Assembly: GCA_903891095.1 (NCBI GenBank)
Contig: CAITDI010000002.1
Coordinates: forward strand, 1 to 64,000
Length of the DNA: 64,000 nt
From: an uncultured bacterium
GTDB taxonomy: Bacteria > Planctomycetota > Phycisphaerae > Phycisphaerales > SM1A02
Direction: 5' to 3'
The notes beneath the pieces are model-generated. The model had not been told where the DNA came from, ran no database searches, and was given only the letters and a program-made list of their open reading frames with translations. Shown here in pieces: positions 17,273 through 55,882 of this stretch. Positions within the stretch are counted from its first letter, which is position 1. Each line of letters opens with the position of its first letter. The position numbers were made by a program, and so were the translations under genes.

Positions 17273-17620
17273 ATGGCCGACGCGATCAACACCTTCAACG
17301 CGACCGAACAGAACTTCGACAAGGAGGTCGTCCAGTCGAGCGTGCCGGTGCTTGTCGACTTCTGGGCGTCGTGGTGCCCGCCGTGCCGCATGCTCAAGCC
17401 CGAGCTGGCTGCGCTGGCGCCCGAGCTCGAGGGCAAGGTGCGCGTGGCGTTCGTCGACGTCGACGCGGAGCCCGCGATCGCCGAGGCGTTCCAGGTGCGT
17501 GGCATTCCCGCGCTGTTCCTGCTGAAGGACGGCGAGGTCGTGGACGCGTGGACGGGCTACTCGCCGCGCGCGGCGGTCAAGCAGCGCCTCGAATCGCACG
17601 TTGGCAAGATCGGTGGCTGA
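17273..17620 (+). CDS. trxA: Thioredoxin with WCPPC active site
   Basis: Thioredoxin of 115 aa, a dithiol-disulfide reductase. The active site is [10 protein letters not shown] (C35 and C38); the usual WCGPC has Gly-Pro, so the Pro-Pro dipeptide should change redox potential. The cis-Pro segment is [14 protein letters not shown]. No signal peptide, so it is cytoplasmic. The ATG at 17273 has GGAG about 10 nt upstream. A TACATT hexamer (17210-17215) could be the -10. Its last 8 nt overlap the proposed start of the copper ATPase, which points to coupled expression with metal export. Confidence 0.95.
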
Positions 17621-19859
17621 ACGCGTCGTGCCCGTCGAGGGCATGCACTGCGCGGCGTGCGCGTCGAAGGTCGAGTCGGCCGCGCGCGGCGTCGCGGGCG
17701 TTCGCTCGGCGAGCGTGTCGTTCGCGGCGCGCAAGATGCGCGTTGACTTCGATGCGGAGACGACGGACATCGTGGAGATCGCCGCGCGCGTGAAGCGCGC
17801 GGGATTCGCGCTGTCGCTTGATCGCGATCCTGCGGTGCGCGCCGCGCGCGAACTTGCGGAGGAACGCGCGCTGCGCATGCGCGTGATGGTCGGCGGCGCG
17901 CTGTCGCTGCCGCTGGTGGCGATCGCGATGTCGCATGGGGCGATTCCCGCTGTCGCGGGCGAGACGGGCGCGTGGATGCAGGGCGCGCTCGCGCTGCCTG
18001 TGTTCGCGTGGTGCGGTTGGCCGATCCATCGCGCGGCGTTTATGCGCGCGCGGGCGTTTGGCGCGGACATGAACACGCTCGTCTCGCTTGGCACGGGCGT
18101 GGCGTTTGCGTCGAGCGTGTGGGCGCTGGTCGCGGGCGGCGCGGCGATGCATGGCGAGCATCGGATGGAAGCGATGCCCGCCGTGTGGTTCGAGGCGTCG
18201 GCGATCATCGTCGTGTTCGTGCTGCTTGGGCGCATGCTCGAGGCGCGGGCCACGCGCCGCGCGGGCGATGCGCTGCGCGCGCTTTCGGCGCTGGCGGTTG
18301 CGCGGGTGCGGGTGATCGATCCAGGCGTGGACGGCGGCGAACGCGAGGTCTCCGCCGAGGAAATCGAGCCCGGCATGCGCGTGCGCGTGCGGCCTGGCGA
18401 GCGCGTGCCCGTCGATGGTCGCGTGGTCGCGGGCGAGAGCGAGGTCGACGAGTCGATGCTCACGGGCGAGCCGATGCCGTGCGTCAAGCGCGCGGGCGAC
18501 GCGGTCGTCGCGGGCACGATGAACACGCTCGGCGCGCTCGAGGTCGACGCGACGCGCGCCGCGGGCGACACCGTGTTGGCACGCATCGTCGAGATGGTCG
18601 ACGAGGCGCAGACGACGAAGGCGCGCATCGCGCGCGTGGCCGATCGCGTGGCGGCGGTGTTCGTGCCGGTGGTGATCGCGATCGCGATCGCGGCGGCGGG
18701 CGCGTGGCTGATGCTCGCGCCCGCGGACATTCGCGTGGCCAAGGCGATCGAGGCGCTGGTAAGCGTGCTGGTCGTCGCGTGTCCGTGCGCGCTCGGCCTC
18801 GCGACGCCGGTCGCGGTGATGGTCGCGTCGGGGCGCGCGGCGCAGATGGGCGTCTTGTTCCGCTCCGCGGGCGCGTTTGAGAAGCTCGCCGCGCTACGCG
18901 AGATCGTGTTCGACAAGACGGGCACGCTGACCGAAGGCGCGCCGCGCGTGGTCCAGGTCATTGCCGTGGCGGGCGTCGATGAAGCGCGCGTGCTCGCGGT
19001 CGCCGCCGCGTGCGAGCGCGCGAGCGAGCATCCGATCGCGCGCGGGATCGTGGACGAGGCGGATCGCCGCGGGATCGCGCGGTTGCCAGGCGAAACGCGC
19101 GACTTTCGCGCCGTCGCGGGGCAGGGCGCGCAGGCGACGGTTGGTGACGCGCGCGTGCTCGTCGGGCGCGCGTCGTGGCTTGCCTCGTTGCTTGCGGCGC
19201 AGGGCGTGGAGATCTCGATCGAGATTCCCGCGGGTACGACGGTGTGCGTCGCCGAAGGCGCGCAACTGCTCGGCGCGATCACGCTGGCCGATCAGGTGCG
19301 TGGGTCTTCGCGCGGCGCGATCGAAGCGCTGCGCGCGCTCGGCGTGCGTGCGTTCATCGCCAGCGGAGACGACGCGACGGCGGTCGCCGCGGTGGCGCTC
19401 GCGGTGGGCGTCGACGCAAGCGACGCACGCGGCGCGATGACGCCCGAGTCGAAGGCTGCGTTCGTGCGCGATCGCCGCGCGCATGCGGATGCTTCGGGGC
19501 GGAGCGGTGTGGCCTTCGTCGGCGACGGCATCAACGACGCGGTCGCGCTCGCCTCGAGCGATGCGGGCATCGCGATGGGCGGCGGCAGCGATGTCGCGCG
19601 CGCGAGTGCGGATGTCACGCTCGTCTCCGCGGACCTCGCGCGCGTGCCCGATGCGATCGCGCTCTCGCGGCGCACGCTTGCTGTGATCAAGCAGAATCTC
19701 GCATGGGCGTTTGGCTACAACCTCGTGCTGATTCCGCTTGCGGCGGGCGCGTTCTGGCCGCTCACGGGCTGGATGTTGCCTCCGGTCGCCGCGAGCGCGG
19801 CGATGGCGCTTTCGAGCGTGAGCGTGGTGATGAACAGCCTGCGCCTGCGCCGCGCGTAG
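17613..19859 (+). CDS. copA: Copper-translocating P1B-type ATPase
   Basis: Heavy-metal P-type ATPase of 748 aa that exports Cu(I) across the inner membrane. It has one N-terminal HMA domain with [10 protein letters not shown] (C13 and C16), membrane helices, the TGEPMP actuator region, the intramembrane CPC (about 389-391), DKTGT with the phosphorylated D434, SEHPIARGI and [10 protein letters not shown]. The later YN ([10 protein letters not shown]) and MALSS motifs in the last helices mark the Cu(I) class (P1B-1). There is no ATG before the HMA domain; I chose GTG 17613, with TTG 17601 as alternative. Both overlap trxA. Confidence 0.93.
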
Positions 19860-50547: not shown

Positions 50548-53514
<2,967 letters not shown>

Positions 53515-53580: not shown

Positions 53581-53745
53581 GGAGACGCGGGACGCGCTTC
53601 CGAATGGACCGAATCGCCACGCGCCGTTGGCGCATCCTCCGAACCGTTGTAGAGTTGCACCGTCCTGGCCGGTGTCGTCTCTGGCTTGGATCGCGTGTGC
53701 GGCTTCGCAGGGTTTCGGAGGATCTCCTCCGCAGAGGTCAGGTCG

Positions 53746-54423
53746 ATGGTGCTCGTCCAACGGTCCATGCATGTGCTTCGGCTTCGCGTCCGCTGTGTGC
53801 GGATGCGTGCGGTGGTCGCTTGGATGTGCCTGCTGGCGTTCGTCATCGCGAGCCAGGGACTCATGCCCTCGGCCGCGCTGCTCACGCGCATCGGCGTGCT
53901 GCCCGCGTCGGCCGAGCGCTATCCATGCGAGGGCTGCGCCTGCGGCTGCGGAAGCGCCGAACACTGCTGGACCAGCTGCTGCTGCCACACGCTCGAGGAA
54001 CGCGTCGACTGGGCGATCGCGAACAACGTCGCGATCCCGCGTTCGATCGGGCCGCGCGCGTTTGCGCTCGTGATGGCGCGCGCGGCGGCGGCGGAACTTC
54101 CCGCGTGCTGCGCGGCGCGGGCGATGCAGGCGCATGATGATTCGCACGCCGACGCGGACGGCGCGTGCCACGGCGACTGCCACGCGGCGCCCGGCGCGTC
54201 GTCCAGCGCGGCCCGCACGCTCGCCGTGCGCATGGCCACGCTCTCCGCGCTCGGCTGCAAGGGAATCTCGGGCTGGCTCGCCGTCGCGCCGCCGATGCTG
54301 CCGCATGCGTTCGTGGCGCTCACGCTGCCGCGGGCGATCCGACCGTCGTTCGACGCGCCGATCAGCGACGCGCTGCCCGCGGGTCTCGTGATCGAGCATC
54401 CGGCGCCGCCGCCTCGCGCGTGA
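53746..54423 (+). CDS. Cys/His-rich membrane-anchored protein, possible metal handling
   Basis: Hypothetical protein of 225 aa. After a helix (VVAWMCLLAFVIASQGLM, about 23-40) it has a dense Cys cluster: CEGCACGCGSAEHCWTSCCC, with His next (about 62-83). A second Cys/His-rich stretch (ACCAARAMQAHDDSHADADG then ACHGDCHA, about 126-155) and a C-terminal GCKGISGWL plus Pro-rich segment follow. The spacing looks like metal binding, but no family can be named. It starts a three-gene plus-strand run with a beta-barrel protein and a YHS lipoprotein. The start is chosen at the ATG after GAGGTCAGG; a later ATG (53767) is possible. Confidence 0.65.
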   Translation: MVLVQRSMHVLRLRVRCVRMRAVVAWMCLLAFVIASQGLMPSAALLTRIGVLPASAERYPCEGCACGCGSAEHCWTSCCCHTLEERVDWAIANNVAIPRSIGPRAFALVMARAAAAELPACCAARAMQAHDDSHADADGACHGDCHAAPGASSSAARTLAVRMATLSALGCKGISGWLAVAPPMLPHAFVALTLPRAIRPSFDAPISDALPAGLVIEHPAPPPRA

Positions 54424-54566
54424 GCGGTCGATCTTCGTCCTCACGAAACCCAGTCCTGTTCGCACCGCGCCCGTCGCGGGCTTGCGCGCGTTTCCGCAGC
54501 GCGGCCTTCGCGTTCGCGTGGTGCACGTCATCACCATCACGATCATCCAACTCACGGAGTGCATCC

Positions 54567-55535
54567 ATGCACCGCAATCGCACGTTCGCTTTCATCGCTT
54601 CCGCAACGACCCTCGCCGCCGCCATCGCGACGACCGCCACCGCAAACCACGGCCCGGGCACCTCGGGCGGCGGCATCAACACCTTCTCCGGCGAGACCAT
54701 GAAGGCCTCGACCTGGGACATGAGCTTTCGCCTCGACTACACGAGCTTCGACGGCCTCACCGAGGCGCAGGCCGCGTCGCACGCCGCCAACAGCGGTGCG
54801 TACGACAGCATCGACTCGGCCACGATCACCACGTTCGGCCTCTCGTACGGCGTGACCGAGGACATCCAGGTCGGCACGACCATCGGCTGGTACTGGGGCA
54901 GCAACTTCATCGACGCGATGGACACTGGCAAGGGCGTCGAGACCGCGTCGGCCGATCCGTCGGGCCTCACCGACATGTGGATCACGGGCAAGTTCCGCAT
55001 CGTCAAGGGGCAGCCGGGCAACGTCTCGCTCATCGCGGGCATCAAGCTGCCGACGGGCAAGAACGACTGCCTGCTCTCGAACGGCGAGCCGCTCGAGCCG
55101 TCGAGCCAGCCGGGCACGGGCGCGGTCGACTTCATGACCGGCGTCGCGTACTCGCGCTTTCTCGATGCGCACATCACGATCGATGCGAGCGCGGCGTACA
55201 CCTTCCGCACCGAGCACGACGACTTCAAGGTCGGCGACCGCTTTGACGCGGGCGTGGCGCTGGCGTACCGCCTGACCGACGACATCAACTCGTTCCCCAA
55301 CATCAGCGTGTTCGGCGAGGTCGCCTACACGCAGATCTGGAAGGACCAGGACGTCGGCGTCGCCAATCCCAACAGCGGCGGCGAGACGCTGTATCTCTCG
55401 CCGGGCGTGCGCGTACGCTTCAATCCCACGATGTCGCTCACCGTGTCGCCTGCGTTCCCCGTCTGGCAGAACCTCGACGGCGACCAGGTGGAGCAGAAGT
55501 ACAAGGTCAGCGCGATGATGAGCATCGCGTTCTGA
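54567..55535 (+). CDS. Outer-membrane beta-barrel (transporter/phenol-degradation MetA-like)
   Basis: Exported protein of 322 aa with a signal peptide (about 1-26, ending TATANH) and a beta-barrel pattern of alternating residues ending in a C-terminal aromatic (SAMMSIAF). Strands and turns such as LSYGVTEDIQVGTTIGWYWG, DMWITGKFRIVKGQPGNVSL, AGIKLPTGKND and LYLSPGVRVRFNPTMSLTVS match the Phenol_MetA_deg/transporter family (PF13557). GGAG lies 8 nt before the ATG. Its stop overlaps the YHS lipoprotein start (TGATG). Probably an outer-membrane channel for the metal module; the solute is unknown. Confidence 0.8.
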   Translation: MHRNRTFAFIASATTLAAAIATTATANHGPGTSGGGINTFSGETMKASTWDMSFRLDYTSFDGLTEAQAASHAANSGAYDSIDSATITTFGLSYGVTEDIQVGTTIGWYWGSNFIDAMDTGKGVETASADPSGLTDMWITGKFRIVKGQPGNVSLIAGIKLPTGKNDCLLSNGEPLEPSSQPGTGAVDFMTGVAYSRFLDAHITIDASAAYTFRTEHDDFKVGDRFDAGVALAYRLTDDINSFPNISVFGEVAYTQIWKDQDVGVANPNSGGETLYLSPGVRVRFNPTMSLTVSPAFPVWQNLDGDQVEQKYKVSAMMSIAF

Positions 55536-55882
55536 TGAGATCGAGCGATCCCATGCGAACGAGCAGCATCACACGAATTCGTTTCGGTCGTCTCGCCGCA
55601 GCGGCGATCGCCTTCGCCACGGCCGTCGGCGCGCAGTGCACCCTCACGGGGTGCGCTGCCGCCGGCCCGTGCGGCGCGACGGGCGCCGACTGCAACTGCG
55701 CCGAGTGCGAGGTCTGCCGCTTCAACGCGGATCTCGCGTGCGTCGAGGTCAAGATCAAGGACAACACGCCGCGCACGGAGTACAAGGGCAAGACCTACTA
55801 CTTCTGCAGCGAGGACTGCAAGCGCGACTTCATCAAGGACCCGGACAAGTACCTCGCGTCGTCGATCAAGAAGGCTGGCTGA
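55535..55882 (+). CDS. YHS-domain lipoprotein
   Basis: Small exported protein of 115 aa. A signal sequence ends in the lipobox LTGC (residues 37-40), so it is probably lipid-anchored. A Cys-rich stretch (CGATGADCNCAECEVC) leads into a YHS-like domain (60-110): EYKGKTYYFCSEDCKRDFIK, with the paired Cys that bind metal in this family. The start ATG overlaps the beta-barrel stop by 1 nt; a second ATG at 55553 is possible. The last 17 bp overlap the convergent desaturase. YHS proteins accompany copper and other heavy-metal systems, so metal binding is the best guess. Confidence 0.82.
   Translation: MRSSDPMRTSSITRIRFGRLAAAAIAFATAVGAQCTLTGCAAAGPCGATGADCNCAECEVCRFNADLACVEVKIKDNTPRTEYKGKTYYFCSEDCKRDFIKDPDKYLASSIKKAG

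Follow-up and report, generated by a model that had tools for sequence, protein, structure and literature searches.

A Cys-rich, probably exported protein as a putative metal-sensing nascent chain ahead of a barrel-YHS operon in Planctomycetota

The first gene of a three-gene unit of an uncultured planctomycete was found to encode a Cys-rich protein with a Pro motif beside its stop codon. By analogy with CruR and CutF, we interpret this protein, with a probability of roughly 0.6, as a metal-sensing regulatory nascent chain, that is, a large upstream open reading frame controlling the genes for an outer-membrane barrel and a YHS lipoprotein that follow it. To our knowledge, very few proteins have been shown to sense metal post-transcriptionally as nascent chains, namely CruR and CutF, both from Pseudomonadota. 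The unit occupies positions 53746-55882 of the window, which is the whole 64,000-nucleotide stretch of contig CAITDI010000002.1 that was analysed. An earlier sequence-only reading had described the unit as a trio that looked like an uncharacterised metal capture or efflux system. Profile matches and translations showed that the trio is real, with a Cys-rich protein, a PF13557 barrel and a four-Cys YHS lipoprotein. The functional proposal survived in part. The trio is conserved, uncharacterised and linked to transition metals, but its Cys-rich member is disfavoured as the capturing or exporting part, given the terminal Pro motif, the spacing from Cys to Pro, the place of the gene at the head of the unit and the variety of genes that follow it in other loci. 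The features are:

53746..54423, plus strand: gene 1, Cys-rich, leader-like and probably exported protein of 225 aa from an unnamed family
53926..53985, plus strand: eight-Cys core C61-x2-C-x-C-x-C-x5-C-x3-CCC, seven of its Cys invariant
54256..54258, plus strand: Cys171, within SALGCKG; the last Pro of the terminal motif follows 52 residues later
54406..54417, plus strand: PPPR motif at the C-terminus, a candidate translation-arrest sequence separated from the stop by one residue
54424..54566, plus strand: intergenic region of 143 nt, C > G, candidate attenuation region
54567..55535, plus strand: gene 2, outer-membrane beta-barrel protein of the PF13557 type, 322 aa (profile match)
55535..55882, plus strand: gene 3, YHS-domain lipoprotein, 115 aa (profile match)

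Inspection of the translation of gene 1 showed a hydrophobic N-terminal segment followed by P-C-E-G-C-A-C-G-C-x5-C-x3-CCC-H and further Cys, giving 15 Cys in total; alternative starts are possible at the ATG codons at 53767 and 53803. The protein matched nothing in Pfam or NCBIfam at E ≤ 1, and a PDB sequence search gave no useful match. The window's genome has two paralogues (on contigs C88 and C1), and further relatives were found in genomes G026 and G056 and in an independent Planctomycetota MAG. An alignment of 24 members showed that the Cys cluster pointed out earlier is indeed conserved, since C61, C66, C68, C74, C78, C79 and C80 were invariant. The core consensus was F/Y-P-C-x2-H/C/R-x-C-G-C-x-S-A-x2-C-W-x2-C-C-C, and the Cys of a C-x-G motif was nearly invariant in the same alignment. 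Members are up to 325 aa long, with a long, varied, Cys/His-rich middle region, and a hydrophobic N-terminal segment was recognized by eye across the family. The core Cys of gene 1 likely face the periplasm, and the product, instead of being a standing membrane protein, may be exported or anchored. The previous description of gene 1 as a Cys-rich membrane protein was right about the Cys but may not hold for the membrane; only gene 2 encodes a clearly integral (outer) membrane protein.

By searching with a profile built from six sequences, the family was detected in 46 of 392 sampled Planctomycetota genomes, Brocadia-like genomes among these, and in 5 of 181 genomes of the window genome's taxonomic family; it was absent from the 15 other genomes of the genus. 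The family is therefore patchy yet widespread, as judged from samples of genomes that include many MAGs and in which gene starts are uncertain. Two queries for members on plasmids found none. One member (L068:7629-8311) was frameshifted, its C-terminal half lying in the next reading frame.

The C-terminus of the family was markedly distinct from those of neighbour proteins. PP was present in the last 16 residues of 64 of 66 family members compared with 17 of 338 neighbour proteins, and terminal PP[R/K/Q] was present in 55/66 and 3/338, respectively. One of the two exceptions for PP was a frameshifted member, and the other has PPPPR just beyond the 16-residue limit. The motif, of the type PP-x-x-P-P-R, ends 1-16 residues ahead of the stop and occurs in the variants PPPR, PPxPPPR, PPEKPPR and PPDKVPI, with one Pro invariant among 24 diverse members. 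All four Pro codons occur in it, indicating that the peptide, not the RNA, is conserved and under selection. No report of arrest at PPPR was found in the literature. It was further found that essentially all of the 55 non-redundant members have a Cys at 49-55 residues before the last Pro, with few Cys at 38-48 or 56-70 residues. The distance from the core to this spaced Cys was highly variable, ranging from about 27 to 171 residues.

The position of the gene was also conserved. The downstream gene was on the same strand as the family member in 43 of 44 loci, compared with 23 of 42 for the upstream neighbour. The gap to the next gene was mostly <510 nt, with a median of 194 nt (66 nt for control pairs), and these gaps showed an excess of C over G (p = 3e-4 against control gaps), which is indicative only, because the compared loci are related and statistical tests overstate their independence. 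Folding of the 143-nt gap in the window was not significant (z of -1.16). Neither the window nor nine loci contained Rfam elements, the same nine loci contained no riboswitch, and no promoter match and no plus-strand terminator match were obtained. A stem-loop does cover the barrel start codon (GTGCATCCATGCAC), but it was dropped because 19 of 71 genes here have one that is as good. No operator shared by the regions upstream of the three paralogues was found beyond similar dyads in two: CGGAGGATCTCCTCCG at window positions 53716-53731, 15 nt ahead of the ATG at 53746, and TGCGGAGATCCTCCGCA upstream of the contig C1 paralogue.

The genes following the putative leader differed between loci. They encode a barrel plus YHS protein, a barrel alone, a TonB-copper-type receptor, DUF1559-type prepilin-like proteins with a PQQ propeller, PepSY_TM, DUF4198 or AhpC/TSA, or secreted dockerin or PEP-CTERM-like proteins, the names DUF1559 and PEP-CTERM being assigned by eye. 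About two dozen loci (L049-L070, L072, L073) have the leader followed by a DUF1559-type prepilin-like gene and then by a PQQ propeller, PepSY_TM, DUF4198 or AhpC/TSA gene. Such variation, seen even among the three paralogues of one genome, is as expected of a cis-acting leader. The paralogue on contig C88 (G000:C88:78286-79008) heads a PEP-CTERM-like tandem pair of secreted genes, and that on contig C1 (G000:C1:3495-4205) heads the gene of an HHHHVTV dockerin protein. Several downstream proteins besides the barrel seem to begin their mature part (after the stroke) with His, as in A/HGECC, A/HDTW, A/HTTVMS and A/HHHHV, which may be reminiscent of N-terminal His copper sites.

Genes 2 and 3 scored as ordinary members of their families. 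Gene 2 matched PF13557 (Phenol_MetA_deg) with E = 1.9e-12 and 48.2 bits (cut-off of 22), and its barrel has an invariant H28-G29 right after the likely signal peptide. Gene 3 matched the YHS domain PF04945 with E = 8.4e-12 and 45.3 bits (cut-off of 30.3); a lipobox-like LTGC precedes the domain, and four Cys (C61, C69, C91 and C95) were invariant in 12 sequences. The 1-nt overlap of the two genes that had been reported requires gene 3 to start at 55535; the in-frame ATG at 55553 is another possible start. All three genes are read from the plus strand; they are flanked by a monomeric isocitrate dehydrogenase-like gene (ending at 53514) and a convergent desaturase-like gene, both named from their translations. 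The window does contain a copA-like ATPase at another place, as had been stated (17601-19859; TIGR01511, 522.9 bits).

The trio was then compared across 16 genomes with a close barrel (E < 1e-60), the window's own genome (G000) included. The YHS gene was directly 3' of the barrel gene in 15 of them, the exception being G252, and the Cys-rich gene was beside this pair in 11, namely G000, G062, Brocadia-like genomes and, in a divergent form, G188; the genes are thus neighbours in related genomes, as the sequence-only reading implied. The usual order was Cys, barrel, YHS, and in several Brocadia-like loci the YHS gene is followed by one more Cys-rich gene and one more barrel gene. Genomes with trio-type loci are spread over several families of the phylum, and the recurrence of the trio in G062 and many Brocadia-like genomes is far beyond chance. 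The barrel was found in 1 of 181 genomes of the window genome's family, i.e. its own genome only, so the trio is not general within that family. No description of a fixed pairing of a PF13557-type barrel with a four-Cys YHS lipoprotein was found in the literature searched. The congeners G010 (L155) and G015 (L159) have the dehydrogenase and desaturase genes as close neighbours and the trio missing, while G008, whose dehydrogenase fragment is 95% identical, has a YHS gene without an export signal between the two flanks (L124:5236-5544, L146). The simplest reading is that the trio was in place before the split of G000 and G008 and was partially lost in G008.

The surroundings of the leaders and of the barrel-YHS pairs gave indications of the metal. 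At locus L076 the leader is directly upstream of a receptor whose best model was TIGR01778, with 448.5 bits, slightly under the cut-off of 472; this TonB-copper-type receptor adjoins a copper-type P-ATPase and ccoS. PepSY_TM and AhpC/TSA genes are near leaders in other loci, and CusB/CusC-like efflux genes adjoin the barrel-YHS pair at L104. Six Brocadia-like loci (L079, L082, L083, L107, L109 and L110) have the leader and barrel, some with the YHS gene, in one block with cbiB, cbiQ and an ATP-binding cassette gene, and several of them also have cobB, which is a hint at cobalt or nickel rather than copper in Brocadia-like genomes. On balance copper is, at slightly better than even odds, the preferred metal for the window. 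Cu(I) would be the likeliest metal for the leader, cobalt or nickel being possible, and lineages may differ.

We infer that the leader could work as follows. The gene 1 protein would be exported co-translationally, and the ribosome would slow or stop on reaching the terminal PPPR. At that moment Cys171 would be just out of the ribosome tunnel, and the eight-Cys core would already be across the membrane. Metal bound to these Cys might change how the chain folds or how strongly it is pulled, and might thereby decide whether the ribosome stays, which would govern transcription (by way of Rho) or translation across the 143-nt gap and on into the two genes downstream. The metal, or a complex of it, would cross the outer membrane by way of the barrel and be bound in the periplasm by the four-Cys YHS lipoprotein; the route might serve either uptake or efflux.

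This reading is weakened by the length of the members, since 325 aa is long for a leader, and by the loci with a second Cys-rich gene 3' of the YHS gene. It is further weakened by the departure of PPPR from RAPP, by the failure to detect DUF2946 homology, by the finding of neither significant structure in the gap nor Rfam elements and, where copper is concerned, by the cbiB, cbiQ and cobB surroundings in Brocadia-like genomes. The Cys-rich protein might instead be a working part, i.e. a metal-binding protein or chaperone, exported or anchored in the membrane, that hands metal to the YHS lipoprotein and the barrel. The invariant core Cys, which likely face the periplasm, the recurrence of the partnership with barrel and YHS genes in distant families, and the long, varied Cys/His-rich middle region are all consistent with such a function. 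Nevertheless, we consider it unlikely, because it does not account for the PP-x-x-P-P-R beside the stop, for the constant distance between Cys and Pro, for a gap that is long and C-rich, or for operons of quite different contents being headed by one gene. A combination of both functions, in which a nascent-chain sensor is also retained as a periplasmic metal buffer once released, would have the same positional and terminal features as the leader, and would suit members that are longer and Cys-richer than CruR or CutF. It is rather improbable, as CutF is rapidly degraded after export and CruR is thought to be short-lived (PMC9973294, PMC9426467).

The mechanism might also be as proposed for the leader but with cobalt or nickel, not copper, as the metal, for B12 or nickel-enzyme supply. 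The location of the module among cbiB, cbiQ and cobB in several Brocadia-like loci, the DUF4198 genes that follow the leader in other loci, and the occurrence of CutF-like proteins with only His motifs ahead of Ni/Co genes are in line with this. The core of the present family, however, is Cys-only, as is usual for Cu(I) or Zn sites, and its partners include TonB-copper, ccoS, PepSY_TM and AhpC/TSA genes; the failure to find a riboswitch in the nine loci likewise makes cobalt or nickel a doubtful choice.

For the family as a whole, a broader proposal is made tentatively from the sequences, at a little under even odds: a Planctomycetota family unrelated to DUF2946, or diverged from it beyond recognition, might combine an exported eight-Cys sensor with a PPPR-type arrest motif and act as a portable leader that puts many operons, that of barrel and YHS included, under direct metal control. 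If so, the nascent-chain metal switch would be widespread and not confined to CruR and CutF, many unannotated genes would gain a function, and a ready test of how the ribosome reads metal on a nascent chain would be at hand. The barrel and YHS lipoprotein point to an undescribed outer-membrane metal route.

Among the closest known systems is CruR, a copper-responsive upstream regulator of Bordetella pertussis. CruR is an exported DUF2946 protein, heading a copper operon with a TonB receptor and a PepSY_TM protein (PMC9426467). Its RAPP is near the C-terminus, and the CXXC-RAPP interval of 45 residues (49 from the last Cys to the last Pro) is conserved within 1-2 residues and matters for regulation (PMC9426467). 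Between cruR and its downstream neighbour lie 162 bp with a C>G bubble; Rho is involved, and the ribosome stalled at RAPP keeps Rho off until copper binds (PMC9426467). The arrest was demonstrated in vitro (PMC12992588), and a copper role was proposed for the PepSY_TM protein CrpH (PMC13038864). PepSY_TM and AhpC/TSA genes have been reported in CruR-headed operons.

Like CruR, the present family has a putative export segment, a putative Cys metal motif, a Pro/Arg motif close to the stop, a distance of ∼50 residues between Cys and the last Pro, the first position in the operon and a long C-rich gap, and its partners include TIGR01778-type receptors, PepSY_TM and AhpC/TSA. The sequences themselves are different. 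The family has an eight-Cys core with CCC where CruR has one CXXC; the spaced position, 49-55 residues before the last Pro, holds a single Cys of the C-x-G type, not CXXC; the order is P-P-R compared with R-A-P-P; and the proteins reach 325 aa and head barrel plus YHS and DUF1559 operons in Planctomycetota. The C-terminal RAPP was absent, the four variants given above standing there. A scan of 24 members with E values up to 10 gave no match to DUF2946 (PF11162), and PF11162 was not found in the window's genome, whereas true DUF2946 members do occur in Planctomycetota, e.g. at L132 (CPIC...RAPP). As geometry and position match but the sequence is not DUF2946, the family is regarded as CruR/CutF-like by hypothesis and is not filed as a member.

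CutF, encoded in cutFOG of Rhodobacter capsulatus, combines a Sec signal, a CxxxC motif and an end rich in Pro, and it switches on a copper oxidase (PMC9973294). The present family shares with CutF and CutF-like proteins the Cys motif, PP near the C-terminus and a same-strand downstream metal gene (PMC9973294). CutF-like regulatory upstream ORFs carry PP no more than some 15 residues from the C-terminus and are followed by a same-strand gene within 1000 nt; here 64 of 66 members had PP within 16 residues, and the next gene was on the same strand in 43 of 44 loci. The CutF-like survey kept only proteins <150 aa, and members of the present family reach 325 aa. The uA_LPPP peptides, poly-Pro arrest peptides upstream of secA in Planctomycetota, differ from the present family in preceding a secretion gene, not metal genes, and no Cys core was found in the description of them (PMC10987492). 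They resemble it in being exported proteins of the same phylum with a terminal PPP motif ≤15 residues from the stop (PMC10987492).
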